From the NCBI RefSeq assembly GCF_907164915.1, contig NC_061866.1, forward strand, positions 20,769,429 to 20,833,428: DNA of 64,000 nucleotides. The letters run 5' to 3'. Positions 23,196 to 61,735 of the stretch are shown piece by piece. The number at the start of each line of letters is the position of its first letter. Within the stretch, counting starts at the first letter, position 1. Under the pieces are notes generated by a model. It saw nothing but the letters and a program-made list of their open reading frames with translations, did no database searches and was not told where the DNA came from. Source of the stretch: Impatiens glandulifera (taxonomy: Eukaryota > Streptophyta > Magnoliopsida > Ericales > Balsaminaceae). The position numbers and the translations under genes were made by a program.

Positions 23196-23213
23196 AAATT
23201 TAAAAATGATAAA

Positions 23214-23549: not shown

Positions 23550-23636
23550 ATTAATTTTATTTCAGCAGGTAAGCTCGATGATAGAGGCTATCATAATGTT
23601 TTTAGTGGTGTAGCATGGAAGCTAAGCAAGGGTTCA

Positions 23637-24470: not shown

Positions 24471-24889
24471 ATGTAAAAACCAGGCAATTCATATTTTTTG
24501 GTTATGGTGATGAAAAGTGGGGATACATATGTTATGAACCAGTTGACAAGAAGGTTTTGAGAAGCTGAGATATGATATTTCTTGAAGATCAGACTATTGA
24601 GAATTTTAAAGATGGTGAAAATCTTGATGCATACATACGTGATCTTTCTGGTCTTGAGTTGTCTCATGATGTTGAGGAGACAAGGCCAAATGTAGCTTCA
24701 GACTCAGATAGTGATTATGATGTTCCTAGGGTCAAGCTATTGGCCATGGAAATGATACTGAAACTGATCTTGGTGATAATATTGAGGCTGATTTTTAAGT
24801 TCAACAAGAAGATGGAAATCAACAAAATCAACAAATAGAGGTACTTAGGAGGTCTACTAGGAGAAAAGATCAAGTTCTAAGTACTAGCT

Positions 24890-34195: not shown

Positions 34196-34515
34196 TTATA
34201 CCCATCTACAACAGAAGTAGAATATGTTGCATGCAACTTTTGTGCTCAATTGTTGTTGGTTAAACAGCAGTTGAGAGACTTTGGTATCCAGGAAAACGAG
34301 TCTCCTATCTTCTGTGACAACACCAGTGTTATCGCGATCACATATAACCCAATGTTGCACTCTCGGACGAAGCATATTGATATCCATCATAATTTCATCC
34401 AGAATCATGTTGCTCAGACACATATTCAATTGGAATATGTGCCAACGGATCAGCAAGTGGCCGACATCTTCACGAAGCCACTCCCCGAGACTAAGTTTTC
34501 TTATTTTTAAATATT
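34196..34515 (+). pseudogene. Copia D RNase H C-terminus
   Basis: The plus-strand frame has LLVKQQLRDFGIQENE, then IFCDNTSVIAITYNPMLHSR, then TKHIDIHHNFIQNHVA and LEYVPTDQQVADIFTKPLPE. This is the conserved end of copia RNase H with the catalytic D in FCDN and the KHID block. Sequence upstream (before 34,196) does not carry the rest of pol, so the fragment is truncated. A purine stretch TTGAGGGAGAAA at 34,561 followed by TGTTGATAAAG suggests a polypurine tract and LTR immediately downstream. Confidence 0.8.
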
Positions 34516-41663: not shown

Positions 41664-41695
41664 CACTGGTGAAAAAGGGGTCAAAACCGAGAGTT
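41664..41695 (+). repeat. CACTA left terminal inverted repeat
   Basis: CACTGGTGAAAAAGGGGTC followed directly by the first palindrome AAAACCGAGAGTT. Starts with the family-defining CACTG/CACTA. Confidence 0.95.
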
Positions 41696-42375
41696 AAAAC
41701 TCTCGGTTTTGACCCTATAACTTTCAGTGAAGACACCTTACCGAAGGTTTTAGTAACCCTCGCCATCCCTCGGTATTGACACTCTCGGGACTTCCATAAA
41801 GAGAAAAACCGAGAGTTATATGAAAACTTTCGGGTTTTTCTCTTTGTGGAAAAACCGAGGGTTTTACAAGAACTTTCGGTTTTTCTCTTTTGGAAAAACC
41901 GAGGGTTTTACAAAGACCTTTCGGTTTTTCTCTTTTGTGGAAAAACCGAGGGTTTTATAAAGACCTTTCGGTTTTCCTCTTTTTACAAATAACTTTCGGT
42001 TTTTCTCTGTGTGGAAAAACCGAGGGTTTTGCAAAGAACTTTCGGTTTTACCCGAAGAGTTAAAACCGAAAGTTTTGTAAATAACTCTCGGTTTTCCTCT
42101 TCGGGTAAAACCGAGAGTTTTCCACTAACTCTCTGTTTTCTCCTTTTCAAGAAAACCGAAAGTTATATTAAAACTCTCGGTTTTTACCCCGAAGAGGAAA
42201 ACCGAAAGTTTTGTAAATAACTCTCGGTTTTCCTCTTTAGGATAAAAACCGAGGGTTTGTCATATAACTCTCGGTTTTCTCTTTGGCTAAAAACCGAGAG
42301 TTTTCTAATATCTCTCGTTTTTTCCAAAAAGAGAAAAACCGAGAGATTTCAATATTACTTTCGGTTTTTTCCCCT
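41690..42375. repeat. Left subterminal palindromes (TNPA-site candidates)
   Basis: At least twelve copies of AAAACCGA(G/A)(A/G)GTT and its complement AAC(T/C)(C/T)TCGGTTTT, mostly arranged as inverted pairs 10-25 bp apart. By position and arrangement they correspond to the subterminal repeats bound by TNPA in En/Spm. Arms are often not perfectly matched here (for example GAAAG opposite CTCTC). Frames at 42,011-42,446 are products of the repeats. Confidence 0.85.
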
Positions 42376-42596
42376 AAATTTTTAAAAATGTGCGGATTAT
42401 TTTGCTCGTAACCAAAACCTAACCAAAACCTATTCAGCCAAACCAATATATTAATGATAAAAGAAATGCAGCATACATTAAACGATCACATTAATTGATC
42501 GTGAACATTACAAAATTCGAAACCAAACAAATATTCCGAACAATCTGTTATAAATTCAACTACTATAATGAAAACATGTTCATAATCGAAACAACC
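42376..42596 (-). other. TNPA 3' flank
   Basis: AT-rich presumed 3' UTR/terminator of TNPA. No gene. Confidence 0.5.
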
Positions 42597-44378
42597 TTAG
42601 CTTGTGGGGGGAGGATGTGGTTGTTGCCTCATATATAATTCGATTCTCTCCATTCTCGCGTTCATCTCTGACTTCTCCCTCTCCATTTTTTCGGTAATCT
42701 CTAACTTCTCCCTCTCCATTCTTTCCACAATTTCTTGCTTTTCCGATTGCAATTCTTCCATTTTCCGCCTTCTTTCTTCATCTCTCTTCTCCAGTTCCTC
42801 CAGCTTGAGCTTCATCATTTGATTCTCTTCTAACAATCGCTCATTGTTTCGCTGTGAACTGTTTCCACTACGACGATCCTCACGAAAGTGTGTGGGCCGG
42901 ACGCCTGATCCCATTCCGAACACTACCCCGTGTTTTTGTTGTCCGAACACCCTCTCCGTCAATTCAAAATCTGATATTCCCGGTTCGTTACTAACAACCT
43001 CTTCCATCTCAGCCTGCACAATTCAAATAAAATATCATTTATATAATAAAAAACTAGGCATATTCAATTCACTTACAATTTTCTCTTGCACGTGTTCGTC
43101 CGGGACGGGTGTTGGGTTTTCTTGTGTCGGTTTTGGTGTACGGGTCCTCTTGAATACTTCAATTACAGACGGTGGCCGTCCCATTTCAATCGCCTGTTGA
43201 AATAAATGATTTATATAATTAATAACAATTTTTATATTAAGTTATTACAAATAATGAACTTACCAACTCGTCTTCAATTTGTGCAAACGGTCTACTTCCC
43301 GTTCGATGAGGGAATTTCAGATTCTTCCGGTTCTTCATATTGGTAGAACTGTGTCTCTGTATTTGAAATAACAAATGAAGTTAGATTAATTAATATCAAC
43401 TTTTATTTGAATTATGAAACCGTACCTTAAACGTTTCTGTGAAGAAATGGTTGCGACACACAAACTCCCAATCATCTCGATTGTAGTCCGGTGGAGGATT
43501 AGCCAGTACCGCCGCCTCGTCTCCGTTGTGGACGCGGATATAATTCTTGTTCAAATCCGACCGCCATCTATCCCATATCTGATTGGCGTGTCCCAACCCC
43601 GTCTTTCGAAAAGACTCAATGTCACCATTAGTCGCTTCGAACGGATCCTGAAATAAATAACATCCAAATGTTACAAATAATTATTTAATGACGTAATGTA
43701 TAATCAAGTTATAAGTAGTACCTTGATAGCAATCCACAGTGAATCCAATTATTCTGCACTTAAAGCCTTCCACTTGAGAAGACGGTGTGAGACGGCTACG
43801 GGGTCCCGGATTATCGACCCCACATGTCTAGACCACCGTGTTCTTCCCACATCTGTACCGCCTGGCCTCCCATCCTTCTCTCTAAACGTTAGAGGGATCC
43901 TCGTCCCCGCTAGCCTCTTAGACAGCGCAATATTCTTGTTCTTCCCCCGTCTCTTGCGGGCAGAAGATTCTTCAAAATTATCAAAATCTTAATTAAATAT
44001 GTCAATCAATTGAAACACTAACTAATTTGTAAACGAAATACCTGTCGATGATGGGTCGGGAGTGGTCCCGTGCTCCTCCTCGTCATCCTGCTCCTCGATA
44101 GGCTCCTCAAGACCCTCGTCTTCAGCCTCATCGCTAGGCAGGTTATCAGCGAATGTGCTCTCTATATACTCTGCGAGGTCATCAATATCGTCTTCAGTCT
44201 CGTATGTTCGGGGAGGCGTAGTAGCTATCGGGACCACAGGAATCGGTGGCTGGTCTCTCGAAGACGATCCTCGTTGCTTTAACGACTCGGATTGGGCAAG
44301 TAGGTTTTGGTAACTCTTATCCAATTTCTTGGGTGTCTTCCTCATACTCTTCCAAGTTGTTTTAGGAGCTTCAGACAT
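42597..44378 (-). pseudogene. TNPA-like CACTA regulatory protein gene, six exons, one nonsense codon
   Basis: A consistent model joins exons 44,378-44,042, 43,987-43,722, 43,647-43,426, 43,356-43,264, 43,193-43,077 and 43,013-42,597; all junctions are GT/AG and in phase (484 codons with stop). Exon 1 starts MSEAPKTTWKSMRKTPKKLD and has an acidic stretch. Exon 2 carries a basic region (SARKRRGKNKN, GTRIPLTFREKDGRP). Exon 3 carries ANQIWDRWRSDLNKNY; exons 4-5 carry HRTGSRPFAQIEDEL and MGRPPSVIEVF, blocks known from plant TNPA/transposase_24-like proteins. Exon 6 has GVVFGMGSGVRPTH and a long E/R/K coiled coil. TNPA binds subterminal repeats and helps bring the ends together. Codon 192 (43,749-43,751) is TAA in ...LSAE-stop-LDSLW, where related proteins have Q or another residue, so this copy would give only 191 residues. 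Confidence 0.8.
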
Positions 44379-44500
44379 TCTTAATTCACACCATTAATAA
44401 AAATGAGTGAATACTTGAAATAAAGTAGTAATAAAAATGACTATAAAGTTAAAAACATAATTAAATCTACCTAATTAATTAATCTGAACTATATGTTTGT

Positions 44501-47153
44501 AAACCGCGGTTTTATTTTTGTCACAATCTTCCAACCGGGTCGGGCTGACATATCAGGGGCGTAGAATACTTATTTTGCTTGACTCGCCAATATATACGGG
44601 TCTTGACTTTGCGTTTTCAATATTCGGTTTACATTTACACTTACGAAGCCATATTTATCCACTTTCACTCCTAGTTCCCCCGAGTGTGTATCAAACCACT
44701 TACACTTGAATAAAACAACTCGTTTGTGAGAATAGTATTGTAATTCGATTATATCCGTCAAAACTCCGTAGTATGACATAGTTTCAGATCCGTTGAATCC
44801 CTCAACAACCACCCCACTATTTTGAGTTGTCAAACCTTCGTCGTGTTTTTCTGTACAGAATTTGAATCCGTTTACTTTACACCAAACATACATAGACGAG
44901 TACATACTTGGACCTTCTCCTAAGATCTTGAGGTCTCTTGATATGTCGTTAATTTCTGCTAAATGGGCGACTTATATATGTATCCGAAATGTAGTTGTTA
45001 ATATGAATAAGAAGAGTTAGGATATATGGTTTGTAATTTACTCACTCGATGCTTGAAATATGCGGCAAACGTTTCTCCACTTGACTCGTTGTTATAATCT
45101 CTGCAAATAGATCGAATGCTAATTAATAACACTCTTTAATGCTAATTAGTAACAGCAACTTTGAAACTTACATGTAAAAAGGTTCTACTTCGGGACAATT
45201 TTTCAAAATGTAAGAATGAGCTGTCACTCGATCTATATAATCCAAGTTGTATACTTTTCCGTTGGATAGGTCTTCCAATGATGCAAATATTGAAATCCCC
45301 GAGATTTCAGGTTGTGCATTTTCTTGATCTTGTTCCTCCATATACCTGGCACATAAGCTAATACTTTCGTTAACAAGATAGCTCTCGCTTATAGAGGCTT
45401 CGGGGTGATTATTATTCCGCAAATATCTTTTCATTGTACCCATGTAATGTTCAAAGGGATACATCCATCGATACTGAACAGGTCCTCCAAGCAAAGCCTC
45501 AAATGACAAGTGAACCGGGAGATGCATCATGATGTCGAAGATTGACGGCGGAAAAATCATTTCAAATTTGCAAAGTGTCAATGTAATATCCATGTACAAT
45601 TGTTCCAGGTCCTCTTGAATCAACTCTTTGAAGCACAACAACCGAAAGAAACGAGACAAATTTACTAACGCATCATACAAGGACAAGCAACATTGTTTGG
45701 AACCATGAACCAATCGAAGGGATACCGTGTCGTTGTTACAACAAGGACAAGCAAATTTACCTTTCGTACTCCAGCCTGATAAATTCGCGTATGCGGGAAA
45801 GTCGTTAATGGTCCACAACAACGCAGCTCGCATGTTAAAGTATTGCGAGGTGTGTGCATCAAACGTTCTCACTCCTGTTTGCCACAGTTCATGCAACTCT
45901 TCGATCAATGGCTGAAGAAATATGTCAATTGCATCTCCCGGACTCTTTGGACCCGGAATTAACATAGATAAAATGAAATTGCTAGAATCCATGCAAGTCG
46001 TGGGTGACACATTATAAGGGACGAGAATTACCGGCCAAACACTGTATGATTTTTTTCCATTTGCAAATGGTTGAAACCCATCGCTTGATAAACCAAGTCT
46101 TACGTTTCGAGATTCTGAAGCAAAATCTGTAAAATTTTCATCAAACGTCTTCCAAGTTAAGGAATCAGCGGGGTGTCTCAACGTATCACTATCAACTCTT
46201 CCTTCTTTATGCCATCTCATCATTGGAGCCGTCTTTGAGGACATGTATAGTCTTTGCAGTCTTGGTATTAAAGGGAAATATCTCAACACCTTTTTTGGAA
46301 TGAATTTCCCGTTTTGCTTCTCCCGAACTGTCCCACTTGTTTGGTCGACTTTCCATCTTGAAAGACCGCAAACTCTACACGAATCTTCATTTATGTCGTC
46401 CTTCCAAAATAGCATACAGTTGTTCTTACATGCGTCTATCTTGTCATATTTAAGCCCGATATCAGTAATGAATTTTTTACTTTCGTAGTATGAGTTTGGC
46501 AATTGAGCGTCAATCGGTAATATGTAGTCTTTAAGCAGACGCAGCAACATATCGAACGAAGAATTCGTCCATTGAAATACATTTTTTATGTGAAGTAGTT
46601 TCAGTAGTGCCGATGATTTCGTTATTCGAGCACCTTCATACAATGGCCGTTTGGAATCATCAAGCAATTTATAAAATCTTTGCGCATCTTCGACTGGTTC
46701 ATCGTTGCTCGGGACGTCATTAACGTTGGGGAACATATCGTTTATAAATTCGTGCATATAACGTTCTTCGTTCACCTGTTCATTAACTGTATTATTCATC
46801 TCCTGTATCGGATCGTTGAATTCCGGCACGGCATCCTCCGACTGATCATCGTCGTCATCATCATCGTAGTCATCAGCATCTTCATCGACATCTTCATTAA
46901 CCACTTGAGTAGTACGTCTCTTTTCTCCATGAAAATACCAATACTCATAATGGATATTTATTCCATAAACGATGAGGTGAGTCTTCACTTCGTCTATTTC
47001 CATAAACGGCGTGTTCAAGCATTTCACGCAGGGACATTTTACAGTTTGTCGGGATGTATTCCGAACAGCATACTCGAGGAATTTGTCAACACCTTCCTCG
47101 TAATCTGGATGATCTCGACGTAAGGTCATCCAGCTTTTATCGGGTACTTCCAT
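44501..47153 (-). pseudogene. TNPD transposase gene with internal deletion and nonsense codon
   Basis: Exon 1 runs 47,153-45,172: an AG acceptor lies just before MEVPDKSWM, so this start is preferred to the ATG at 47,183. Exon 2 is 45,100-45,042 and exon 3 begins 44,970; phases agree. The N-terminus is the transposase-associated domain (CPCVKCLN). Next comes the transposase_21 domain: CGLSRWK, YFPLIPRLQRLYMS, WHKEGRVDSDTLRHPADS, LGLSSDGFQPF, MLIPGPKSPGDAID, TINDFPAYANLSGWSTKG, CPCCNND. Then DUF4218 (MIFPPSIFDIMMHLPVHL, GPVQYRWMYPFEHYMG) and in exon 3 DUF4216 (SYYGVLTDIIELQYY, DPYILASQAK). After HGSKQCC the reading jumps to the segment just before DUF4218. The usual GHRRFLP...HNLDVMHIEKN region is absent, so a core part of the catalytic domain is deleted in frame. 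A TAA at 44,570-44,572 interrupts ASQAK/VFYAPDMSARPGW. Confidence 0.88.
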
Positions 47154-47660
47154 ATTTCTAATAAAATGGAAAACAACCCGCATTATTATTTACTTAAATT
47201 TGTCTAAATTAATTAGGGTTACATAATGTTAACATAATTTCTAACTAATCTATCATTATCCAACCAAAATTACACATAAACAAACAATAATAAAACCTAA
47301 CATAAATCTAACTTAAATCTAAACATACATATATTCTAACATTATTTCATTCATACACATTTCAAAACCTATTTAAATTATAATTCAACATTATTTCATT
47401 CATACACATTTCAAACCTAATCTAATCTAACATAATCTAACATAATCTAACATAAATCAAACATAATACCTAATCTAACATACTTCAAATCTAACATAAA
47501 TCAAACATGAAACTAACCTAACCATATAATAAACCAACAAGAACTAACCTTGCACAAATAGAGCGACGAAGAAGAGAAGCGAATGTAGATCGACGAGCGG
47601 GCAACGGGCGGCTTAAATTCCTAATCCTAACCTAATAACAATAACCAACATTAATATAAC
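47154..47660 (-). promoter_or_regulatory. TNPD leader: GC-rich 5' exon a and intron
   Basis: A GC-rich block (about 47,549-47,640; many GCGACG/CGG) ends on the minus strand in GTGCAAG followed by the donor GTTAGTTC at 47,548. The intron runs to the AG just before the TNPD start. No ATG-led protein is evident, so it looks like an untranslated first exon. Confidence 0.45.
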
Positions 47661-48430
47661 CAAATATTCAAACCAATAAATCTAATCAAATCAAACTCCA
47701 ATCAAACATCAATCTAGCCAAAATCAAAATTTTAACCTAAAATTCTAACCTAAACTTCAATCATATCTAACCTAAATCAAACCTCAATTAAATAACAATC
47801 AAACCAACAAACATTCAACCAAACATATATCAAATCAATCGAATAAAATAATCAATCCAAAACCTAAACTAACCAAAATCAAACCAAACATATATGAAAT
47901 CAATCCAAGAAAATAATCAATCCAAAACCTAAACTAACCAAAATCAAACATAATTGCAAAAATCATACAACCAAACTCAATATAACCTAAAACCAAATCC
48001 AACAACCAATTACAAAAATCAAATCCAATACATAATCTAAACTAATCAATCTAACAATAATATAAACCTAATGTAACAATTCAATATAACCCAAACTAAC
48101 CAAAATCAACCAAATTTTCAACCCAATCAAACAAATATAACCTAAAATCAAACAAATAACCTAAAATCAAACAAATAACCTAAAATCAAACAAATAACCT
48201 AATATCAAACAAAATACCTAACATACAAATCTAACAAAAATCTAACAAATATCTAACAATAATCTAACCTAATTGCAACAATCTAACAAAAATCTAACTT
48301 CAATCTAACCTAATTTCAAAAATCTAACAATAATCTAACCTAAACTGAAAAATCTAACAAGAATCTAAAATTAATCTAACCTAATTGCAACAATCTAACA
48401 CTAATCTAACCTACTTTCAAAATAAAACCC
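47210..48430. other. 1.2-kb G-depleted (A/C/T) stretch
   Basis: The plus strand consists almost only of A, C and T, with recurring AATCTAAC, AAACCTAA and CAAATAACCTAAAAT words (the last repeated four times at about 48,135-48,200). A short GC-rich block at 47,560-47,630 interrupts it. It lies in the presumed 5' intron of TNPD, so the transcribed strand is T/G-rich and C-poor. Confidence 0.8.
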
Positions 48431-48439
48431 TAAACTAAC

Positions 48440-48700
48440 CTTGCAGGGCGGCGGCGGCGGCAGAGATTCTTCAAGTTTCGTAGGCGGCGGCAGAGGGCGA
48501 TTCTTCAACGGCTTCGGTGGACTTCGGCAGGGCGGCGGCGCAAGGTGTTCGGCAGGGCGGCGGCGCAAGATGTTCGGTGGTCTTCGTGTCTGCTTGTTCG
48601 TCGGGGAGAGAGAAGAGGGCGGCGGAGATGAGAGGAGAAGAGAGAAATGAAATCGGGAAAAAGAAGAGGAAGAGGCGCTTTTTTAATTTTAGGATGTCAT
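48440..48700 (-). promoter_or_regulatory. TNPD leader: GC-rich 5' exon b
   Basis: A GC-rich island rich in GGCGGC, 220 bp in AT-rich surroundings. On the minus strand it ends CCCTGCAAG followed by the donor GTTAGTTTAGG (intron from 48,439), the same junction wording as 5' exon a. Two 24-bp blocks with GGCAGGGCGGCGGCGCAAG are repeated. Plus-strand frames here are antisense. Confidence 0.45.
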
Positions 48701-49856
48701 TTCCGAGAGTTGTATAAAGAACTCTCGGTTTTACCATTATTAAAACCCGAGAGTTGTGTATAAAACTCTCGGTTTTACCCTTATAGAACCCGAGAGTTTT
48801 ATATACAACTCTCGGTTTTATAATGTTTAAATTCCGAGAGTTTTAATATAAATCTCGGTTTTTAATGATTAAATACATTTTTAGAATTAAATTTAAATAC
48901 ATAAAAACGAGAGGCTTTGGTAAATCTTTCGTTTTTCATGCATATTTCCGAAAGTTATATATTTAACTTTCGGTTTTACAACATGAGAACTTGTTAAATT
49001 ATTTGAATTCTCACTTTCTAATAACGTTGAACAACATTAATTTAACACATTTGATATCCTTAAAACATTTCCCAATCCATATGATCAAACATTACACAAA
49101 TACATAGGATAATCAAACATAAACATTCATATACACTTCTATATATAATCAAACACATTCATAAACATTTTAACATTAAAGACAATTAAAATTTTTAAAA
49201 TAAAAACACACACTTGATTTTATTATTTAGGAGTCTAGATTGGAAGGTAGAAAACCAATGAATTTTACAATTTTGTTAAATGATAATTCCGAAAGTTATA
49301 TAATTAACTTTCGGAAATATCCATCAAAACCGAAGGGTTTATATAAAACCCTCGTTCTTGAGAAAATGTAAAATCCGAAAGTTTATAGAAAACTTTCGGT
49401 TTTGATGGTTATTTCCGAAAGTTAATTATATAACTTTCGGAATTATCACTTGACAAAAGGTTAAATTCTTTGGTTTTTCATCTTCTAATGACCTATAACA
49501 ATATTAATTTACCACATTTGATATATTCAAAATATTGCACAATCCATTTGATCAAACATTACCTACATTCATAAGATAATCAAACATGAACATTCATATA
49601 GACTTTTCTATAATAATAAAACACAATCATAAATATGTGAACATGAAACACAATATTAATTTTTAAAATACAACACAAAATTGATTATATTAGTAAGAAG
49701 TTAAGATTAGTGGGTTAAAAACAAAATAATTGAACAAACTAGGTAGTGTTAAAACCGAAAGTTATAAAATTAACTTTCGGTTTTGATGTGTATTTGCGAA
49801 GGTTTTAAATATATCTCTCGGTCTTGACCTTGATCAGAAGTTTTTTGAAATTGTTA
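48700..49856. repeat. Internal field of subterminal-type palindromes with ~467-bp duplication
   Basis: Palindromes with matched arms occur as GAGAG/CTCTC (48,705-48,850), GAAAG/CTTTC (48,950-48,980; 49,290-49,440; 49,750-49,785) and finally GAAGG/CCTTC. The blocks around CACATTTGATAT and TCAAACATTAC at about 49,050 and 49,515 are two diverged copies of one roughly 467-bp unit. This field lies 12 kb from the nearest transposon end. Confidence 0.75.
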
Positions 49857-52800
49857 AAACCGAAGGTTTATTTGAAAACCTTCGGTTTTTACCCTTCCCC
49901 ATACTTAGAAAATTTTCAGATTTTTTTAATGTAAGGACAAAACCGAAGGTTTATTTGAAAACCTTCGGTTTTTACCCTTCCCCATACTTAGAAAATTTTT
50001 AGATTTTTTTAATGTAAGGACAAAACCGAAGGTTTATTTGAAAACCTTTGGTTTTTACCCTTCCCCATACTTAGAAAATTTTCAGATTTTTTTAATGTAA
50101 GGACAAAACCGAAGGTTTATTTGAAAACCTTCGGTTTTTACCCTTCCCCATACTTAGAAAATTTTCAGATTTTTTTAATGTAAGGACAAAACCGAAGATT
50201 TATTTGAAAACCTTCGGTTTTTACCCTTCCCCATACTTAGAAAATTTTCAGATTTTTTTAATGTAAGGACAAAACCGAAGGTTTATTTGAAAACCTTCGG
50301 TTTTTACCCTTCCCCATACTTAGAAAATTTTCAGATTTTTTTAATGTAAGGACAAAACCGAAGGTTTATTTGAAAACCTTCGGTTTTTACCCTTCCCCAT
50401 ACTTAGAAAATTTTCAGATTTTTTTAATGTAAGGACAAAACCGAAGGTTTATTTGAAAACCTTTGGTTTTTACCCTTCCCCATACTTAGAAAATTTTCAG
50501 ATTTTTTTAATGTAAGGACAAAACCGAAGGTTTATTTGAAAACCTTCGGTTTTTACCCTTCCCCATACTTAGAAAATTTTCAGATTTTTTTAATGTAAGG
50601 ACAAAACCGAAGGTTTATTTGAAAACCTTCGGTTTTTACCCTTCCCCATACTTAGAAAATTTTCAGATTTTTTTAATGTAAGGACAAAACCGAAGGTTTA
50701 TTTTAAAAACATTCGGTTTTTACCCTTCCCCATACTTAGAAAATTTTCAGATTTTTTTAATGTAAGGACAAAACCGAAGGTTTATTTGAAAACCTTCGGT
50801 TTTTACCCTTCCCCATACTTAGAAAATTTTCAGATTTTTTTAATGTAAGGACAAACCGAAGGTTTATTTGAAAACCTTCGGTTTTTACCCTTCCCCATAC
50901 TTAGAAAATTTTCAGATTTTTTTAATGTAAGGACAAAACCGAAGGTTTATTTGAAAACCTTCAGTTTTTACCCTTCCCCATACTTAGAAAATTTTCAGAT
51001 TTTTTTAATGTAAGGACAAAACCGAAGGTTTATTTGAAAACCTTCGGTTTTTACCCTTCCCCATACTTAGAAAATTTTCAGATTTTTTTAATGTAAGGAC
51101 AAAACCGAAGGTTTATTTGAAAACCTTCGGTTTTTACCCTTCCCAATACTTAGAAAATTTTCAGATTTTTTTAATGTAAGGACAAAACCGAAGGTTTATT
51201 TGAAAACCTTCGGTTTTTACCCTTCCCCATACTTAGAAAATTTTCAGATTTTTTTAATGTAAGGACAAAACCGAAGGTTTATTTGAAAACCTTCGGTTTT
51301 TACCCTTCCCCATACTTAGAAAATTTTCAGATTTTTTTAATGTAAGGACAAAACCGAAGGTTTATTTGAAAACCTTCGGTTTTTACCCTTCCCCATACTT
51401 AGAAAAAAATCTGATTTTTTTAATGTAAGGTCAAAACCGAAGGTTTATTTGAAAACCTTCGGTTTTTACCCTTCCCCATACTTAGAAAATTTTCAGATTT
51501 TTTTAATGTAAGGACAAAACCGAAGGTTTATTTGAAAACCTTCGGTTTTTACCCTTCCCCATACTTAGAAAATTTTCAGATTTTTTTAATGTAAGGACAA
51601 AACCGAAGGTTTATTTGAAAACCTTCGGTTTTTACCCTTCCCCATACTTAGAAAATTTTCAGATTTTTTTAATGTAAGGACAAAACCGAAGGTTTATTTG
51701 AAAACCTTCGGTTTTTACCCTTCCCAATACATAGAAAATTTTCAGATTTTTTTAATGTAAGGACAAAACCGAAGGTTTATTTGAAAACCTTCGGTTTTTA
51801 CCCTTCCCCATACTTAGAAAATTTTCAGATTTTTTTAATGTAAGGACAAAACCGAAGGTTTATTTGAAAACCTTCGGTTTTTACCCTTCCCCATACTTAG
51901 AAAAGAATCTGATTTTTTTAATGTAAGGTCAAAACCGAAGGTTTATTTGAAAACCTTCGGTTTTTACCCTTCCCCATACTTAGAAAATTTTCAGATTTTT
52001 TTAATGTAAGGACAAAACCGAAGGTTTATTTGAAAACCTTCGGTTTTTACCCTTCCCAATACTTAGAAAATTTTCAGATTTTTTTAATGTAAGGACAAAA
52101 CCGAAGGTTTATTTGAAAACCTTCGGTTTTTACCCTTCCCCATACTTAGAAAATTTTCAGATTTTTTTAATGTAAGGACAAAACCGAAGGTTTATTTGAA
52201 AACCTTCGGTTTTTACCCTTCCCCATACTTAGAAAATTTTCAGATTTTTTTAATGTAAGGACAAAACCGAAGGTTTATTTGAAAACCTTCGGTTTTTACC
52301 CTTCCCCATACTTAGAAAATTTTCAGATTTTTTTAATGTAAGGACAAAACCGAAGGTTTATTTGAAAACCTTCGGTTTTTACCCTTCCCCATACTTAGAA
52401 AAAAATCTGATTTTTTTAATGTAAGGTCAAAACCGAAGGTTTATTTGAAAACCTTCGGTTTTTACCCTTCCCCATACTTAGAAAATTTTCAGATTTTTTT
52501 AATGTAAGGACAAAACCGAAGGTTTATTTGAAAACCTTCGGTTTTTACCCTTCCCCATACTTAGAAAATTTTCAGATTTTTTTAATGTAAGGACAAAACC
52601 GAAGGTTTATTTGAAAACCTTCGGTTTTTACCCTTCCCCATACTTAGAAAATTTTCAGATTTTTTTAATGTAAGGACAAAACCGAAGGTTTATTTGAAAA
52701 CCTTCGGTTTTTACCCTTCCCCATACTTAGAAAATTTTCAGATTTTTTTAATGTAAGGACAAAACCGAAGGTTTATTTGAAAACCTTCGGTTTTTACCCT

Positions 52801-55800
52801 TCCCCATACTTAGAAAATTTTCAGATTTTTTTAATGTAAGGACAAACCGAAGGTTTATTTGAAAACCTTCGGTTTTTACCCTTCCCCATACTTAGAAAAT
52901 TTTCAGATTTTTTTAATGTAAGGACAAAACCGAAGGTTTATTTGAAAACCTTCGGTTTTTACCCTTCCCCATACTTAGAAAATTTTCAGATTTTTTTAAT
53001 GTAAGGACAAAACCGAAGGTTTATTTGAAAACCTTTGGTTTTTACCCTTCCCCATACTTAGAAAATTTTCAGATTTTTTTAATGTAAGGACAAAACCGAA
53101 GGTTTATTTGAAAACCTTCGGTTTTTACCCTTCCCCATACTTAGAAAATTTTCAGATTTTTTTAATGTAAGGACAAAACCGAAGGTTTATTTGAAAACCT
53201 TCGTTTTTTACCCTTCCCCGTACTTAGAAAATTTTCAGATTTTTTTAATGTAAGGACAAAACCGAAGGTTTATTTGAAAACCTTCGGTTTTTACCCTTCC
53301 CCATACTTAGAAAATTTTCAGATTTTTTTAATGTAAGGACAAAACCGAAGGTTTATTTGAAAACCTTTGGTTTTTACCCTTCCCCATACTTAGAAAATTT
53401 TCAGATTTTTTTAATGTAAGGACAAAACCGAAGGTTTATTTGAAAACCTTCGGTTTTTACCCTTCCCCATACTTAGAAAATTTTCAGATTTTTTTAATGT
53501 AAGGACAAAACCGAAGGTTTATTTGAAAACCTTCGGTTTTTACCCTTCCCCATACTTAGAAAATTTTCAGATTTTTTTAATGTAAGGACAAAACCGAAGG
53601 TTTATTTGAAAACCTTCGGTTTTTACCCTTCCCCATACTTAGAAAATTTTCAGATTTTTTTAATGTAAGGTCAAAACCGAAGGTTTATTTGAAAACCTTC
53701 GGTTTTTACCCTTCCCCATACTTAGAAAATTTTCAGATTTTTTTAATGTAAGGTCAAAACCGAAGGTTTATTTGAAAACCTTCGGTTTTTACCCTTCCCC
53801 ATACTTAGAAAAAAAATCTGATTTTTTTAATGTAAGGTCAAAACCGAAGGTTTATTTGAAAACCTTCGGTTTTTACCCTTCCCCATACTTAGAAAATTTT
53901 CAGATTTTTTTAATGTAAGGACAAAACCGAAGGTTTATTTGAAAACCTTCGGTTTTTACCCTTCCCCATACTTAGAAAATTTTCAGATTTTTTTAATGTA
54001 AGGACAAAACCGAAGGTTTATTTGAAAACCTTCGGTTTTTACCCTTCCCCATACTTAGAAAATTTTCCGATTTTTTTAATGTAAGGACAAAACCGAAGGT
54101 TTATTTGAAAACCTTCGGTTTTTACCCTTCCCCATACTTAGAAAATTTTCCGATTTTTTTAATGTAAGTACAAAACCGAAGGTTTATTTGAAAACCTTCG
54201 GTTTTTACCCTTCCCCATACTTAGAAAAATTTCCGATTTTTTTAATGTAAGGACAAAACCGAAGGTTTATTTGAAAACCTTCGGTTTTTACCCTTCCCCA
54301 TACTTAGAAAAAATTCTAGATTTTTTTAATGTAAGGTACAAAACCGAAGGTTTATTTGAAAACCTTCGGTTTTTACCCTTCCCCATACTTAGAAAAATCT
54401 CAGATTTTTTTAATGTAAGGACAAAACCGAAGGTTTATTTGAAAACCTTCGGTTTTTACCCTTCCCCATACTTAGAAAAATTTTCAGATTTTTTTAATGT
54501 AAGGTACAAAACCGAAGGTTTATTTGAAAACCTTCGGTTTTTACCCTTCCCCATACTTAGAAAAATTTCAGATTTTTTTAATGTAAGGTACAAAACCGAA
54601 GGTTTATTTGAAAACCTTCGGTTTTTACCCTTCCCCATACTTAGAAAATTTTCAGATTTTTTTAATGTAAGGTCAAAACCGAAGGTTTATTTGAAAACCT
54701 TCGGTTTTTACCCTTCCCCATACTTAGAAAAATTTCAGATTTTTTTAATGTAAGGACAAAACCGAAGGGTTATTTGAAAACCTTCGGTTTTTACCCTTCC
54801 CCATACTTAGAAAAATTTCAGATTTTTTTAATGTAAGGTACAAAACCGAAGGTTTATTTGAAAACCTTCGGTTTTTACCCTTCCCCATACTTAGAAAAAT
54901 TTTCAGATTTTTTTAATGTAAGGACAAAACCGAAGGTTTATTTGAAAACCTTCGGTTTTTACCCTTCCCCATACTTAGAAAATTTTCAGATTTTTTTAAT
55001 GTAAGGACAAAACCGAAGGTTTATTTGAAAACCTTCGGTTTTTACCCTTCCCCATACTTAGAAAATTTTCAGATTTTTTTAATGTTAGGACAAAACCGAA
55101 GGTTTATTTGAAAACCTTCGGTTTTTACCCTTCCCCATACTTAGAAAATTTTTCAGATTTTTTTAATGTAAGGACAAAACCGAAGGTTTATTTGAAAACC
55201 TTTGGTTTTTACCCTTCCCCATACTTAGAAAATTTTCAGATTTTTTTAATGTAAGGACAAAACCGAAGGTTTATTTGAAAACCTTCGGTTTTTACCCTTC
55301 CCCATACTTAGAAAATTTTCAGATTTTTTTAATGTAAGGACAAAACCGAAGGTTTATTTGAAAACCTTCGGTTTTTACCCTTCCCCATACTTAGAAAATT
55401 TTCAGATTTTTTTAATGTAAGGACAAAACCGAAGGTTTATTTGAAAACCTTCGGTTTTTACCCTTCCCAATACTTAGAAAAATTTTCAGATTTTTTTAAT
55501 GTAAGGACAAAACCGAAGGTTTATTTGAAAACCTTCGGTTTTTACCCTTCCCCATACTTAGAAAATTTCAGATTTTTTTAATGTAAGGACAAAACCGAAG
55601 GTTTATTTGAAAACCTTCGGTTTTTACCCTTCCCCATACTTAGAAAATTTTCAGATTTTTTTAATGTAAGGACAAAACCGAAGGTTTATTTGAAAACCTT
55701 CGGTTTTTACCCTTCCCCATACTTAGAAAATTTTCAGATTTTTTTAATGTAAGGTCAAAACCGAAGGTTTATTTGAAAACCTTCGGTTTTTACCCTTCCC

Positions 55801-58800
55801 CATACTTAAAAAATTTTCAGATTTTTTTAATGTAAGGTCAAAACCGAAGGTTTATTTGAAAACCTTCGGTTTTTACCCTTCCCCATACTTAGAAAATTTT
55901 CAGATTTTTTTAATGTAAGGTCAAAACCGAAGGTTTATTTGAAAACCTTCGGTTTTTACCCTTCCCCATACTTAGAAAATTTTCAGATTTTTTTAATGTA
56001 AGGACAAAACCGAAGGTTTATTTGAAAACCTTCGGTTTTTACCCTTCCCCATACTTAGAAAATTTTCAGATTTTTTTAATGTAAGGTCAAAACCGAAGGT
56101 TTATTTGAAAACCTTCGGTTTTTACCCTTCCCCATACTTAGAAAAATATTCAGATTTTTTTAATGTAAGGTACAAAACCGAAGGTTTATTTGAAAACCTT
56201 CGGTTTTTACCCTTCCCCATACTTAGAAAATTTTCAGATTTTTTTAATGTAAGGACAAAACCGAAGGTTTATTTGAAAACCTTCGGTTTTTACCCTTCCC
56301 CATACTTAGAAAATTTTCAGATTTTTTTAATGTAAGGACAAAACCGAAGGTTTATTTGAAAACCTTCGGTTTTTACCCTTCCCCATACTTAGAAAAATTT
56401 CAGATTTTTTTAATGTAAGGACAAAACCGAAGGTTTATTTGAAAACCTTCGGTTTTTACCCTTCCCCATACTTAGAAAATTTTCAGATTTTTTTAATGTA
56501 AGGACAAAACCGAAGGTTTATTTGAAAACCTTCGGTTTTTACCCTTCCCCATACTTAGAAAATTTTCAGATTTTTTTAATGTAAGGTCAAAACCGAAGGT
56601 TTATTTGAAAACCTTCGGTTTTTACCCTTCCCCATACTTAGAAAATTTTCAGATTTTTTTAATGTAAGGACAAAACCGAAGGTTTATTTGAAAACCTTCG
56701 GTTTTTACCCTTCCCCATACTTAGAAAAAAATCTGATTTTTTTAATGTAAGGTCAAAACCGAAGGTTTATTTGAAAACCTTCGGTTTTTACCCTTCCCCA
56801 TACTTAGAAAATTTTCAGATTTTTTTAATGTAAGGACAAAACCGAAGGTTTATTTTAAAACCTTCGGTTTTTACCCTTCCCCATACTTAGAAAATTTTCA
56901 GATTTTTTTAATGTAAGGACAAAACCGAAGGTTTATTTGAAAACCTTCGGTTTTTACCCTTCCCCATACTTAGAAAAAAATCTGATTTTTTTAATGTAAG
57001 GTCAAAACCGAAGGTTTATTTGAAAACCTTCGGTTTTTACCCTTCACCATACTTAGAAAATTTTCAGATTTTTTTAATGTAAGGACAAAACCGAAGGTTT
57101 ATTTGAAAACCTTTGGTTTTACCCTTCCCCATACTTAGAAAATTTTCAGATTTTTTTAATGTAAGGACAAAACCGAAGGTTTATTTGAAAACCTTCGGTT
57201 TTTACCCTTCCCCATACTTAGAAAATTTTCAGATTTTTTTAATGTAAGGACAAAACCGAAGGTTTATTTGAAAACCTTCGGTTTTTACCCTTCCCCATAC
57301 TTAGAAAATTTTCAGATTTTTTTAATGTAAGGACAAAACCGAAGGTTTATTTGAAAACCTTCGGTTTTTACCCTTCCCCATACTTAGAAAAAATTCTGAT
57401 TTTTTTAATGTAAGGTCAAAACCGAAGGTTTATTTGAAAACCTTCGGTTTTTACCCTTCCCCATACTTAGAAAAAAAATCTGATTTTTTTAATGTAAGGA
57501 CAAAACCGAAGGTTTATTTGAAAACCTTCGGTTTTTACCCTTCCCCATACTTAGAAAATTTTCAGATTTTTTTAATGTAAGGACAAAACCGAAGGTTTAT
57601 TTGAAAACCTTCGGTTTTTACCCTTCCCCATACTTAGAAAATTTTCAGATTTTTTTAATGTAAGGACAAAACCGAAGGTTTATTTGAAAACCTTCGGTTT
57701 TTACCCTTCCCCATACTTAGAAAAGAATCTGATTTTTTTAATGTAAGGTCAAAACCGAAGGTTTATTTGAAAACCTTCGGTTTTTACCCTTCCCCATACT
57801 TAGAAAATTTTCAGATTTTTTTAATGTAAGGACAAAACCGAAGGTTTATTTGAAAACCTTCGGTTTTTACCCTTCCCCATACTTAGAAAATTTTCAGATT
57901 TTTTTAATGTAAGGTCAAAACCGAAGGTTTATTTGAAAACCTTCGGTTTTTACCCTTCCCCATACTTAGAAAATTTTCAGATTTTTTTAATGTAAGGACA
58001 AAACCGAAGGTTTATTTGAAAACCTTCGGTTTTTACCCTTCCCCATACTTAGAAAAAAATCTGATTTTTTTAATGTAAGGACAAAACCGAAGGTTTATTT
58101 GAAAACCTTCGGTTTTTACCCTTCCCCATACTTAGAAAATTTTCAGATTTTTTTAATGTAAGGACAAAACCGAAGGTTTATTTGAAAACCTTCGGTTTTT
58201 ACCCTTCCCCATACTTAGAAAATTTTCAGATTTTTTTAATGTAAGGACAAAACCGAAGGTTTATTTGAAAACCTTCGGTTTTTACCCTTCCCCATACTTA
58301 GAAAATTTTCAGATTTTTTTAATGTAAGGACAAAACCGAAGGTTTATTTGAAAACCTTCGGTTTTTACCCTTCCCCATACTTAGAAAATTTTCAGATTTT
58401 TTTAATGTAAGGACAAAACCGAAGGTTTATTTGAAAACCTTCGGTTTTTACCCTTCCCCATACTTAGAAAATTTTCAGATTTTTTTAATGTAAGGTACAA
58501 AACCGAAGGTTTATTTGAAAACCTTCGGTTTTTACCCTTCCCCATACTTAGAAAATTTTCAGATTTTTTTAATGTAAGGTCAAAACCGAAGGTTTATTTG
58601 AAAACCTTCGGTTTTTACCCTTCCCCATACTTAGAAAAATTTCAGATTTTTTTAATGTAAGGTCAAAACCGAAGGTTTATTTGAAAACCTTCGGTTTTTA
58701 CCCTTCCCCATACTTAGAAAATTTTCAGATTTTTTTAATGTAAGGACAAAACCGAAGGTTTATTTGAAAACCTTCGGTTTTTACCCTTCCCCATACTTAG

Positions 58801-60444
58801 AAAATTTTCAGATTTTTTTAATGTAAGGACAAAACCGAAGGTTTATTTGAAAACCTTCGGTTTTTACCCTTCCCCATACTTAGAAAATTTTCAGATTTTT
58901 TTAATGTAAGGACAAAACCGAAGGTTTATTTGAAAACCTTCGGTTTTTACCCTTCCCCATACTTAGAAAATTTTCAGATTTTTTTAATGTAAGGACAAAA
59001 CCGAAGGTTTATTTGAAAACCTTTGGTTTTTACCCTTCCCCATACTTAGAAAATTTTCAGATTTTTTTAATGTAAGGACAAAACCGAAGGTTTATTTGAA
59101 AACCTTTGGTTTTTACCCTTCCCCATACTTAGAAAAAAATCTGATTTTTTTAATGTAAGGTCAAAACCGAAGGTTTATTTGAAAACCTTCGGTTTTTACC
59201 CTTCCCCATACTTAGAAAATTTTCAGATTTTTTTAATGTAAGGACAAAACCGAAGGTTTATTTGAAAACCTTCGGTTTTTACCCTTCCCCATACTTAGAA
59301 AATTTTCAGATTTTTTTAATGTAAGGACAAAACCGAAGGTTTATTTGAAAACCTTCGGTTTTTACCCTTCCCCATACTTAGAAAAATATCTGATTTTTTT
59401 AATGTAAGGTCAAAACCGAAGGTTTATTTGAAAACCTTCGGTTTTTACCCTTCCCCATACTTAGAAAAATTTCAGATTTTTTTAATGTAAGGTACAAAAC
59501 CGAAGGTTTATTTGAAAACCTTTGGTTTTTACCCTTCCCCATACTTAGAAAATTTTCAGATTTTTTTAATGTAAGGACAAAACCGAAGGTTTATTTGAAA
59601 ACCTTCAGTTTTTACCCTTCCCCATACTTAGAAAATTTTCAGATTTTTTTAATGTAAGGACAAAACCGAAGGTTTATTTGAAAACCTTCGGTTTTTACCC
59701 TTCCCCATACTTAGAAAATTTTCAGATTTTTTTAATGTAAGGACAAAACCGAAGGTTTATTTGAAAACCTTCGGTTTTTACCCTTCCCCATACTTAGAAA
59801 AATTTCAGTTTTTTTTAATGTAAGGTCAAAACCGAAGGTTTATTTGAAAACCTTCGGTTTTTACCCTTCCCCATACTTAGAAAATTTTCAGATTTTTTTA
59901 ATGTAAGGACAAAACCGAAGGTTTATTTGAAAACCTTCGGTTTTTACCCTTCCCCATACTTAGAAAATTTTCAGATTTTTTTAATGTAAGGACAAAACCG
60001 AAGGTTTATTTGAAAACCTTCGGTTTTTACCCTTCCCCATACTTAGAAAATTTTCAGATTTTTTTAATGTAAGGACAAAACCGAAGGTTTATTTGAAAAC
60101 CTTCGGTTTTTACCCTTCCCCATACTTAGAAAATTTTCAGATTTTTTTAATGTAAGGACAAAACCGAAGGTTTATTTGAAAACCTTCGGTTTTTACCCTT
60201 CCCCATACTTAGAAAAAAATCTGATTTTTTTAATGTAAGGTCAAAACCGAAGGTCTATTTGAAAACCTTCGGTTTTTACCCTTCCCCATACTTAGAAAAA
60301 AATCTGATTTTTTTAATGTAAGGTCAAAACCGAAGGTTTATTTGAAAACCTTCGGTTTTTACCCTTCCCCATACTCAGAAAAAAATCTGATTTTTTTAAT
60401 GTAAGGTCAAAACCGAAGGTTTATTTGAAAACCTTCGGTTTTTA
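49857..60444. repeat. 83-bp tandem array, about 127 units
   Basis: Each unit is an inverted repeat AAAACCGAAGGTTT / AAACCTTCGGTTTT (14-bp arms, 6-base loop ATTTGA) followed by a 49-bp linker TACCCTTCCCCATACTTAG...GATTTTTTTAATGTAAGG. Copies are nearly identical; most changes are single bases in the loop side (CTTCGG to CTTTGG), the linker (AAAATTTTCAGA versus AAAAAAATCTGA) or the junction (GGACAAAA, GGTCAAAA, GGTACAAAA). Diversity is slightly higher near 54.1-55.5 kb. Frames of up to 160 codons in it arise from the repeat. It occupies half of the transposon and on the minus strand lies between the short TNPA-like gene and TNPD. Confidence 0.97.
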
Positions 60445-60470
60445 CTTCAAGTTTTTAAAAAAAAATGGGT

Positions 60471-60506
60471 CAAAACCGAAGGTTTTCAAATAAACCTTCG
60501 GTTTTG
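60471..60506. repeat. Inverted copy of the array palindrome
   Basis: AAAACCGAAGGTTTTCAAAT followed by AAACCTTCGG: the palindrome of the 83-bp unit with its loop in reverse-complement orientation, 27 bp beyond the array end. Confidence 0.85.
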
Positions 60507-60683
60507 GCGATGCGGTTTTTTTTTAAAAAAAGGTGAAAAGTCAACAAAAACATAATTATTTAAAACATATTAAAACAAACCAAACAAACATAATAACAAT
60601 AATTCATAAATATTAAAACATAACGCATAAAATTAAATATTAATTGTCATAAACTCATAATAAATCCATAATAAATCTAGAAA
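60507..60683 (-). other. 3' flank of the short TNPA-like gene
   Basis: AT-rich presumed 3' UTR; nothing else visible. Confidence 0.45.
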
Positions 60684-60980
60684 TTAATTATTAGATGGGG
60701 TGGAAGGAGGGGGTGGTTGATTCAGTCGACTCCTCAACAAGACAAGTTCCTGTTCGAGATTCTCTAATCTTTGAGACATTTCGGCCCGGTCCGCTTTGAT
60801 TTCACTGAGCAAACGACCTCTTTCGGCATCCCTTAGTCGGATTTGTTCCATTTCCAGCGTCATCTTTCTGACCTCTTCCTCACGTGCCGCAATTTCTGAT
60901 TGTGTTATCAGATTCTGGTAACACGGATGCAGTTTCTCCGGTGTACGCCGAAGTCTCTTCCATGTCGAATCATCACCCAT
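60684..60980 (-). CDS. Short TNPA-like protein (98 aa), N-terminal motif plus coiled coil
   Basis: Starts MGDDSTWKRLRRTPEKLHPC and continues YQNLITQSE, matching the TNPA start TWKSMRKTPKKLDKSYQNLL-AQSE. It then goes directly into a coiled coil rich in E, R and L (residues 30-85) and ends in a P-rich tail (RLNQPPPPS), like the TNPA C-terminus (RQQPHPPPTS). The central basic/DNA-binding blocks (exons 2-5 of TNPA) are missing. An AG acceptor lies two codons upstream and a donor at 61,143, so a spliced 5' UTR exon is likely. The frame is intact. If expressed it could pair with TNPA through the coiled coil without binding DNA, but that is inference. It may equally be a relic of an internally deleted TNPA. 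Confidence 0.6.
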   Translation of the reverse strand: MGDDSTWKRLRRTPEKLHPCYQNLITQSEIAAREEEVRKMTLEMEQIRLRDAERGRLLSEIKADRAEMSQRLENLEQELVLLRSRLNQPPPPSTPSNN

Positions 60981-61261
60981 ATCCTAAATGCATTTCAGAT
61001 ATATGGATATATATATATATATTAATCAAACAAAATAACGTAAACTAACATAAATCTAGATCTATAATATATATATATATATAAACTTAACAAATCTAAA
61101 TCTTACAATAAACAAAACAAAAAAACCAAATCAAACAAATTACCTGAAGAGAGGAGAAGAACCCGCGGCTTGGAGGAGGCAGGCGGCGGCGGAGGCGGAA
61201 GAGATAGAAAGGAGAGAAGCGGAATGAAAAAGAGAAGGGTTAGGGTTTGTATTTATAGAGG
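60981..61261 (-). promoter_or_regulatory. 5' exon and intron of the short TNPA-like gene
   Basis: A GC-rich block (61,144-61,215, GGCGGCGGAGGCGG) on the minus strand ends TCTTCAG followed by the donor GTAATTTG. The intron with TATATA runs ends in CATTTAG just before the ATG at 60,980. The transcript would start close to the right transposon end, as the En/Spm promoter does. Confidence 0.5.
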
Positions 61262-61703
61262 TTGAGGCCGAAGGTTTTATAAAACTTTCGGTTTTGATAT
61301 TGGTCAAAACCGAGGGTTTATTAAAAAACCTTCGGAAATAAACATTTCAAAATTTAGAATTTTTTTTTTAATGAGCAAAACCGAAGGTTCTTTGTAAAAC
61401 TTTCGGAAATGAAATTTTCGAAAAATGCAAAACCGAAGGTTATTTGAATAACCTTCGTAATTAAAAAACCAAGGGATTTCAAAACCGAAGGTTTTGACAA
61501 CAACCTTCGCAATTAACCCACATCCAATACTTAGAATTTTTTTGGGTTTTTTTGGAAGGTTATAACCGAAAGTTATACAAAGAACTTTCGGTAATATTGA
61601 ATAAACCCGAAGGTTTTACACCCCACTCGGGATCCATTTTTAATCCCGAAGGATTTGTTCCTCTTGGGAGTATTTAGGAGAGGTTTACAAAACCTTCGGG
61701 AAA
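61262..61703. repeat. Right subterminal palindromes
   Basis: About ten inverted or single copies of CCGAAGGTT, CCGAGGGTT and CCGAAAGTT with their complements. Arms are sometimes mismatched, as at the left end. Confidence 0.8.
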
Positions 61704-61735
61704 AACCGTCGCTAAAGGTCCTTTTTTTACTAGTG
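61704..61735 (-). repeat. CACTA right terminal inverted repeat
   Basis: The inverted strand reads CACTAGTAAAAAAAGGACC followed by TTTAGCGACGG. Followed by the target duplication CTC. Confidence 0.95.

Follow-up and report, generated by a model that had tools for sequence, protein, structure and literature searches.

A long internal tandem array comparable to the one reported here, built of a 171-bp satellite unit (5,550 bp, 32.5 copies), has been described in CACTA-like elements of quinoa, where it is likewise found in several copies within one genome, lies near the 3' end and was judged to have been captured (PMC8978399). Satellites derived from En/Spm elements are represented by Ensat1 and Ensat2, from Arabidopsis Atenspm2 (PMC9659126, PMC6947457, PMC10794571), and a further CACTA-generated satellite by CficCl-61-40, from the element Jozin in Chenopodium (PMC7320549). 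In Drosophila virilis, terminal-repeat tandems of the DNA transposon Tetris (TIR-220) have grown to kb-size arrays (PMC4079207). The soybean CACTA element Tgmt*, like the element described below, is reported to be about 20.5 kb long and to have a 3-bp target duplication and subterminal repeats able to form stem-loops (PMC2613891). A barley paper presents tandem repeat arrays as usual in CACTA elements; together with the quinoa array, this makes too strong the initial annotation's statement that in normal CACTA elements such repeats are restricted to the ends.

The element and its genes

The window, a 64,000-nucleotide stretch of the Impatiens glandulifera genome, contains an element of which an 83-bp tandem array makes up 53% (Table 1). 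Elements of the CACTA superfamily have terminal inverted repeats starting with CACTA, CACTG being a variant. The element belongs to the CACTA (En/Spm) superfamily by every feature that we considered: its terminal inverted repeats are CACTGGTG / CACTAGTA, both borders are intact (CACTGGTGAAAAA at 41664 and, on the minus strand, CACTAGTAAAAAA at 61735), the target site duplication is 3 bp long, and direct and inverted subterminal repeats are present at both ends. The terminal repeats and the CTC duplication confirm that the array lies inside a CACTA element, as had been proposed. The pattern CACTACAA, tried as a terminal inverted repeat, gave no matches, and with the array masked the element had no similarity to its flanks at E 1e-5. 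Equal duplications (AAA, TTA and TTT) were found in three of the four other elements whose two ends were both recovered, the fourth being mismatched (CCA/TCA).

Table 1. Features of the CACTA element, in window coordinates
Feature	Position	Strand	Details
Whole CACTA (En/Spm) element	41664..61735		20,072 bp; CTC on either side
Left end	41664..42400	.	22 half-sites in palindromic subterminal repeats, most of them 44-47 bp apart
TNPA-like gene	42597..44378	-	PF03004 Transposase_24, E 4.1e-19 on post-stop pieces joined by eye; gene model by eye
DUF4216 part of TNPD-like gene	44570..44905	-
TNPD-like transposase ORF	45168..47183	-	Transpos_assoc, Transposase_21, DUF4218
Internal subterminal-type repeats	48703..49855	.	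17 half-sites; matched in 18/20 fetched 10-kb loci
83-bp tandem array	49856..60445	.	127.4 copies; 240 CCGAAGGTT half-sites
Extra CCGAAGGTT palindrome adjoining array	60446..60520	.
98-aa ORF	60684..60980	-	TNPA-like N-terminal motif and coiled coil
Right end	61241..61735	.	12 half-sites; five monomers, two like the unit's spacer
TATAAATA box	61250..61257	-	Upstream of 98-aa ORF

The match of the TNPD-like ORF to Transposase_21 (E 1.1e-75) identifies a TNPD-type transposase, and a lettuce study used the two Pfam domains present here, Transposase_24 and Transposase_21, for tnpA and tnpD. About 215 residues, corresponding to positions 484-698 of the relative P0001, are missing from this ORF. The missing block includes the motif D-x-M-H-x-E-N, present in 96 of the 120 relatives listed and absent from the window; the other 24 of the 120, P0002 included, likewise have no such block. 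Other copies in the genome (L009, L019, L024, L025, L028 and L029) retain it. The TNPA-like exon has an in-frame TAA at about 43749-43751 that is missing from all five other copies in which this stretch was found. Because of the lost transposase residues and this stop, the copy, as predicted from its sequence, does not have the intact transposase and TNPA genes of an autonomous element.

The 98-aa ORF has a match at 35 of the 37 other loci, and in 29 of 38 sequences, the window included, the frame stays open over 97-98 aa. Its predicted protein keeps the N-terminal motif and coiled coil of TNPA and is missing the Transposase_24 region; the coiled-coil likeness may be partly one of composition, since Pfam returned only generic coiled-coil models, below cut-off. 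A search for homologues in protein databases gave three candidates, none at E <= 0.001. The pattern TATAAA[TA]A occurs twice on the element's minus strand, once in the box upstream of this ORF and once at 43236.

The array and its kinship to the element ends

The initial count of about 127 units of 83 bp was borne out by TRF (period 83, 97% matches, score 20098). Cut at a spacer anchor, the array yielded 126 units (109 of 83 bp, 10 of 84, 4 of 82 and 3 of 85) of 42 types, 63 units being the same as the commonest, with a mean of 1.14 edits; another cut gave 45 types among 127 units, 58 of them identical to the commonest and 108 with a perfect palindrome, one base deletion being counted as two types. 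The difference between units was flat with distance along the array. At a lag of 24, one of 39 examined, there were four identical rare pairs against 0.85 expected (2 of 500 shuffles), which would fit expansion by tandem duplication. The palindrome AAAACCGAAGGTTT-ATTTGA-AAACCTTCGGTTTT occurs letter-perfect 109 times in the array, whose exact CCGAAGGTT half-sites divide into 125 and 115, and one unit folded as single-stranded DNA at -15.5 kcal/mol (z -4.7, 0 of 200 shuffles).

The pattern CCGA[AG][AG]GTT has a density of 14.6-29.9 per kb in the array, the internal repeats and each of the two ends, and is absent from 43.9 kb of flank and from the gene regions, in agreement with the earlier view that the unit carries the element's own subterminal motif. 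That the motif fills both ends holds insofar as half-sites are found at each, but the two ends are unlike: the CCGAAGGTT version accounts for 7 of the 12 half-sites on the right, 1 of the 22 on the left and none of the 17 internal ones, which links the array to the right end (p 4.9e-5). The spacer also has its best match there, with a score of 30 against 28 for the best of 300 shuffles (8 of 1000 when shuffling left the palindrome intact). Of the five right-end monomers, two resemble the spacer, their scores being reached by 0 and 3 of 500 shuffles, and the others gave 42, 314 and 468 of 500; for the left end, the internal repeats, 60446-60700 and the right-end minus strand, 13 to 137 of 300 shuffles reached the spacer's score. 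A satellite born from a transposon should have monomers homologous to the element, and such homology is found in the half-site and in two of the five right-end monomers. One left-end and one internal stretch fold well (z -4.3 and -7.2), and folding is weak in two monomers of the right end (z -1.7 and -2.1; 13 and 10 of 200 shuffles).

The array across the family

The array loci come from a search of the I. glandulifera genome in which 851 first-look candidates were reduced to 39 scored. In 35 of the 37 other loci fetched, which are the best query matches and not a random sample, the array occupies one and the same slot in elements of this CACTA family. In these 35 the last unit lies 1,298-1,442 bp from the end of the right-end match, and a terminal inverted repeat (one mismatch allowed) is at most 45 bp away; the order array, 98-aa ORF, right end holds in 20 of 20 10-kb loci. 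The other two loci, pieces of C8 (L040 and L041; C8:44.915-44.928 Mb), are wholly array. Over 3.2 kb one has 36 unit matches and the other 37, the array running off both ends of each piece, and the two are possibly one long array. The search speaks against the unit being mainly an unrelated satellite elsewhere; the array is a length-variable module of the CACTA family, not specific to the copy in the window. At 20 other loci TRF found 6.7-38.5 copies and never more, and the 127-copy array is therefore an extreme expansion.

Eighteen right flanks had no mutual similarity, and the insertions are therefore separate. When right ends were sampled regardless of the array, four of five had units at the slot and the fifth had TNPA-like sequence there instead; the array is therefore not needed for a copy's persistence.

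Conservation of the palindrome

Across 28 locus consensuses, none of the 34 palindrome columns varied, against 18 of the 49 spacer columns (p 1.9e-5; with a clustered variant left out, 10 of 39 spacer columns, p 0.0012), the columns not being fully independent trials because the copies are related by descent. With another anchor, 246 units from 20 loci gave mean minor fractions of 0.003 in the arms, 0.004 in the loop and 0.067 in the spacer (p 3.8e-5). Compensatory change in unit pairs was found in 0 of 35 changed cells. The kept loop and the lack of paired changes fit sequence recognition better than hairpin pairing, and invariance across loci would strengthen the candidate binding role proposed initially; it points to binding-type sites that are maintained as a block, more than to a satellite that arose as a single event. 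Small-RNA duplexes are 21-24 nt long, longer than the 14-bp arms, and this, with the missing compensatory changes, weakens the earlier suggestion of hairpin siRNA.

Within the array of the window alone, the arms were no less variable than the spacer, with changes at 5 of 24 arm sites and 14 of 49 spacer sites (p 0.58; other cut, p 0.59). A first reading, that the satellite was born in this copy and is unconstrained, had been founded on that array by itself, and was dropped when the array proved to be family-wide and the palindrome invariant.

Interpretation

We think it probable, if by no wide measure, that the array is an inherited, length-variable module of a high-copy CACTA family whose palindrome in the array is kept by selection as putative TNPA sites and which has expanded in this copy. 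The family-wide position, the variable length, the invariant palindrome and the intact borders are direct observations. The array has the 98-aa ORF, close to the right end, on one side and the transposase gene, whose 5' side faces it, on the other; it would have arisen in an ancestor, probably from a right-end-type subterminal monomer. It may now offer the family's TNPA-type protein a third set of sites, internal to the element, with selection for transposition or its control presumably holding the palindrome constant while the spacer drifts, and tandem duplication would have taken this copy to 127 units.

It is rather unlikely, and still to be taken seriously, that the satellite is a neutral passenger, born once in the family ancestor, spread by transposition and uniform in its palindrome through homogenisation or hairpin-biased repair. 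The wide spread of array lengths, the array-less derivative, the lack of visible arm constraint inside the window's array and the published satellite array in several quinoa CACTA copies (PMC8978399) are all consistent with such a history. Homogenisation should, however, affect both parts of the unit equally, yet the palindrome alone is invariant across locus consensuses, even though it holds both CpGs of the unit.

We consider improbable a built-in self-control, in which the array, upstream of the transposase gene, would soak up TNPA by copy number, the 98-aa protein would be a possible dominant-negative partner and the 127-unit copy would act as a super-sink. There is little likelihood that silencing of the family starts from the array, by way of methylation or small RNA. 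The array has an excess of CpG transitions (11 of 504 against 4 of 2772 site-units, p 7.8e-7), and CACTA inactivity in soybean is reported to be associated with methylation near subterminal repeats; but all 11 transitions fall at one CpG, in four haplotypes, plant transposons are usually methylated anyway, and the array's CpG observed/expected ratio (0.99) is below that of the rest of the element (1.16-1.34) and above that of the flanks (0.48-0.70). The chance is about equally slight that the 127-copy length is an assembly artefact and the normal length about 7-40, as the range at the 20 TRF-measured loci might suggest: the variety of unit types, a longest exact direct repeat of 580 bp and the C8 pieces, whose arrays continue past both ends, argue against it. 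That a foreign satellite was captured by a CACTA element, as proposed for quinoa (PMC8978399) and as the two C8 pieces without a known element could indicate, is highly improbable, the unit having the element's own half-site and right-end spacer features and nearly all loci (35 of 37) lying within the family.

Significance and comparison with known systems

Two questions become testable: whether the sites for a transposon's cofactor can increase in number to give an internal array that is maintained, and whether the length of such an array tunes transposition. One genome offers many insertions of one family, carrying from about 7 to 127 units, and one or more right ends whose slot lacks the array. 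The family also shows how a satellite can spread genome-wide on a transposon.

Satellites that lie in CACTA elements or derive from them are already published, and the Impatiens case differs from each in particular features. Unlike the quinoa array, it has an 83-bp unit with the element's own subterminal motif, is located 5' of the transposase gene and has an invariant palindrome. The monomers of Ensat1 and Ensat2 match 499 and 151 bp of Atenspm2, in a part that the reviews give variously as the 5' UTR or the terminal inverted repeats (PMC9659126, PMC6947457, PMC10794571), and the source of CficCl-61-40 is given as a tnp2 transposase fragment, not subterminal repeats (PMC7320549). Tetris is described as a foldback element with a unit of about 220 bp (PMC4079207). 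In Tgmt* the subterminal repeats cover 159 and 732 bp, a TNP1 domain stands in place of Transposase_24, and the passages of PMC2613891 concerned describe no comparable internal array.

The array and its element

The best reading of the tandem array of 83-bp units (34-bp palindrome, 49-bp spacer) is that this copy of the element has expanded an internal, family-wide array of putative binding-type sites. The initial annotation had described a CACTA transposon with an 83-bp satellite of about 127 units, and this holds: TRF counts 127.4 copies, and the element's borders were found with CTC on both sides. The left border reads CTC followed by CACTGGTGAAAAAGGGGTC, and the right border is CACTAGTAAAAAAAGGACC (minus strand) with CTC beyond. 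The minus strand carries a TNPD-like transposase with Transpos_assoc, Transposase_21 and DUF4218 domains, a separate ORF encoding DUF4216, and a TNPA-like gene with Transposase_24; as the TNPD-like and TNPA-like genes read on this strand, the 5' side lies at the right end.

Features of the window, and other elements of the family with both ends in hand (L, array loci and paired pieces fetched from the genome; sizes of the L elements are coordinate sums)
Feature	Position	Strand	Size or copies	Remarks
CACTA element	41664-61735		20,072 bp	TIRs; CTC on both sides
83-bp tandem array	49856-60445		127.4 copies	97% matches (TRF)
98-aa ORF	60684-60980	-		TNPA-like N-terminal motif and coiled coil; no Transposase_24 region
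310-bp tandem repeat	39389-41111		5.5 copies	close to element on its left
33-bp tandem repeat	15056-15184		3.9 copies	includes CTTCGGTCGGACCTC
ORFs	23196-25880, 34178-34510			resemble Copia-type polyprotein pieces (judged by eye)
L022 element			6,051 bp	TTA/TTA
L012 + L031 element			8,115 bp	AAA/AAA
L016 + L029 element			13,572 bp	TTT/TTT
L019 + L030 element			11,876 bp	CCA/TCA

Recut at a spacer anchor, the array gives 126 units of 42 types, 63 of them the same as the commonest (mean 1.14 edits), with 109 letter-perfect palindromes. Exact direct repeats reach 580 bp at most, and four identical rare pairs occur at lag 24 where 0.85 are expected (2 of 500 shuffles; 39 lags tried), an excess resembling the trace that block duplication would leave. 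A clustered variant at spacer columns 22-24 and 27-28 of the recut unit makes a second perfect palindrome from part of the spacer; it occurs in 11 of 127 window units, of which 3 lie among the first 64 units and 8 among the last 63, and parts of it are common at other loci.

Distribution across the genome

A 301-bp query cut from the array (roughly three and a half units) gave 270 matches in the 654-Mb assembly, of which the window is C5:20769429-20833428, with 39 scored out of 851 first-look candidates. From the list we took 10 kb around each of 20 loci and, for 17 others, 3.2 kb on the right. On whether the unit lies inside or outside CACTA elements, 35 of the 37 loci have it in the same slot of this CACTA family: the array stops 1,298-1,442 bp, counted from the last spacer anchor, before the end of the right-end match, with a TIR within 45 bp. 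All 20 of the 10-kb loci show array, 98-aa ORF and right end in that order, and 18 match the internal repeats (exceptions L009 and L022); their TRF arrays span 6.7-38.5 copies, those of L013 and L014 each falling into two rows. The right flanks of 17 loci and of the window, eighteen in all, have no mutual similarity and therefore represent separate insertions.

At L040 and L041 (C8:44915000-44928106), the array covers the full 3.2 kb, with 36 and 37 matches of at least 70 bp. These two pieces lie about 9.2 kb apart, are 96% alike and have a spacer with differences of its own; they are perhaps parts of a single array that would exceed the window's in length, or free satellite.

The reverse search, from the right end, gave 1804 first-look candidates, and among the 40 scored the full-length matches were the window at 100% and others at 93-97%. 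The slot was examined in five right-end copies, four having array units and one TNPA-like sequence. L049 (G000:C4:17205920-17206120), a locus with a 97% right end, has 99% identical TNPA-like sequence at the array slot and is probably an internal deletion derivative.

Origin of the unit

That the array shares the subterminal motif was borne out by 240 exact CCGAAGGTT half-sites within it, the same version accounting for 7 of the 12 half-sites at the right end versus 1 of the 39 that the left end and internal repeats have together (p = 4.9e-5). The motif CCGA[AG][AG]GTT occurs neither in 43.9 kb of flanks nor in the element's gene regions. Compared with the right end, the spacer obtains a score of 30, where 300 shuffles reach 28 at most, and scores against seven other region-strand combinations are unremarkable; with the palindrome held fixed, 8 of 1000 shuffles reach the right-end score. 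Two of the five right-end monomers have sequence in common with the unit, namely 61481-61561 (CC.ATACTTAGAA and the T-run; 0 of 500 shuffles) and 61306-61376 (TTTATT loop, TTTAGAA and TTTTTTTAATG; 3 of 500), while the remaining three show no spacer match (42, 314 and 468 of 500). Descent of the unit from a right-end-type monomer is likely, though not proven.

Conservation of the palindrome

A palindrome-anchored cut gave 406 units in 37 loci, and consensuses were compared for the 28 loci with at least four units. Variable columns number 0 of 34 in the palindrome versus 18 of 49 in the spacer (p = 1.9e-5), or 10 of 39 spacer columns without the clustered variant (p = 0.0012). In a spacer-anchored cut (246 units, 20 loci), minor fractions are 0.003 in the arms, 0.004 in the loop, 0.017 at the CpG and 0.067 in the spacer. 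Among palindrome pairs, 35 cells are changed on one side and none on both; with no paired changes and a conserved loop, it is therefore sequence that is conserved, not pairing. Conservation that includes the loop fits a candidate protein-recognised site, from which we infer possible control by TNPA.

Speaking against such a site, arms vary inside the window array as often as spacer (5/24 vs 14/49, p = 0.58), perhaps due to recent expansion. CpG transitions are over-represented there (11/504 vs 4/2772, p = 7.8e-7), all 11 at a single CpG in four haplotypes.

Coding capacity

The 98-aa ORF scores 87 against the TNPA-like N-terminal motif (best of 500 shuffles 51) and 86 versus 74 against the coiled coil. 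Of 38 sequences (window, L009-L028 and L032-L048), 29 keep it uninterrupted at 97-98 aa; of the others, five are broken early, two are without an in-frame ATG and two without the region. Distinct changes are synonymous in 25 cases and non-synonymous in 43, 0.50-0.68 of expectation (p = 0.0053, 0.025 and 0.084 at transition weights 1, 2 and 4), a weak sign of purifying selection.

The window's transposase is without residues 484-698 in the numbering of P0001, the relative used as reference. The missing stretch contains a D-x-M-H-x-E-N block that 96 of 120 listed relatives have and 24 do not, including P0002 from Impatiens glandulifera. The block was found in six other loci (L009, L019, L024, L025, L028 and L029), and the gap is therefore peculiar to some copies. 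The five other copies in which this part of the TNPA-like exon was located all lack the in-frame stop that the window has there.

Comparison with known systems

Among the literature matches listed, mostly titles and abstract openings with few subscription papers, none describes a CACTA family in which the element's own subterminal palindrome forms a conserved internal array, which does not prove absence. Tandem repeat arrays are called usual in CACTA elements in a barley paper (PMC5738225), and quinoa CACTA elements have in common a 171-bp array held to be captured (PMC8978399). The Chenopodium satellite CficCl-61-40 is traced to a transposase fragment of the CACTA element Jozin (PMC7320549), and the Ensat satellites to Atenspm2, with reviews naming the 5' UTR or the TIRs as source (PMC9659126, PMC6947457, PMC10794571). 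Terminal repeats are reported to have given rise to satellite arrays in Tetris (PMC4079207), and the subterminal repeats of Spm to be bound by TNPA (PMC2613891).
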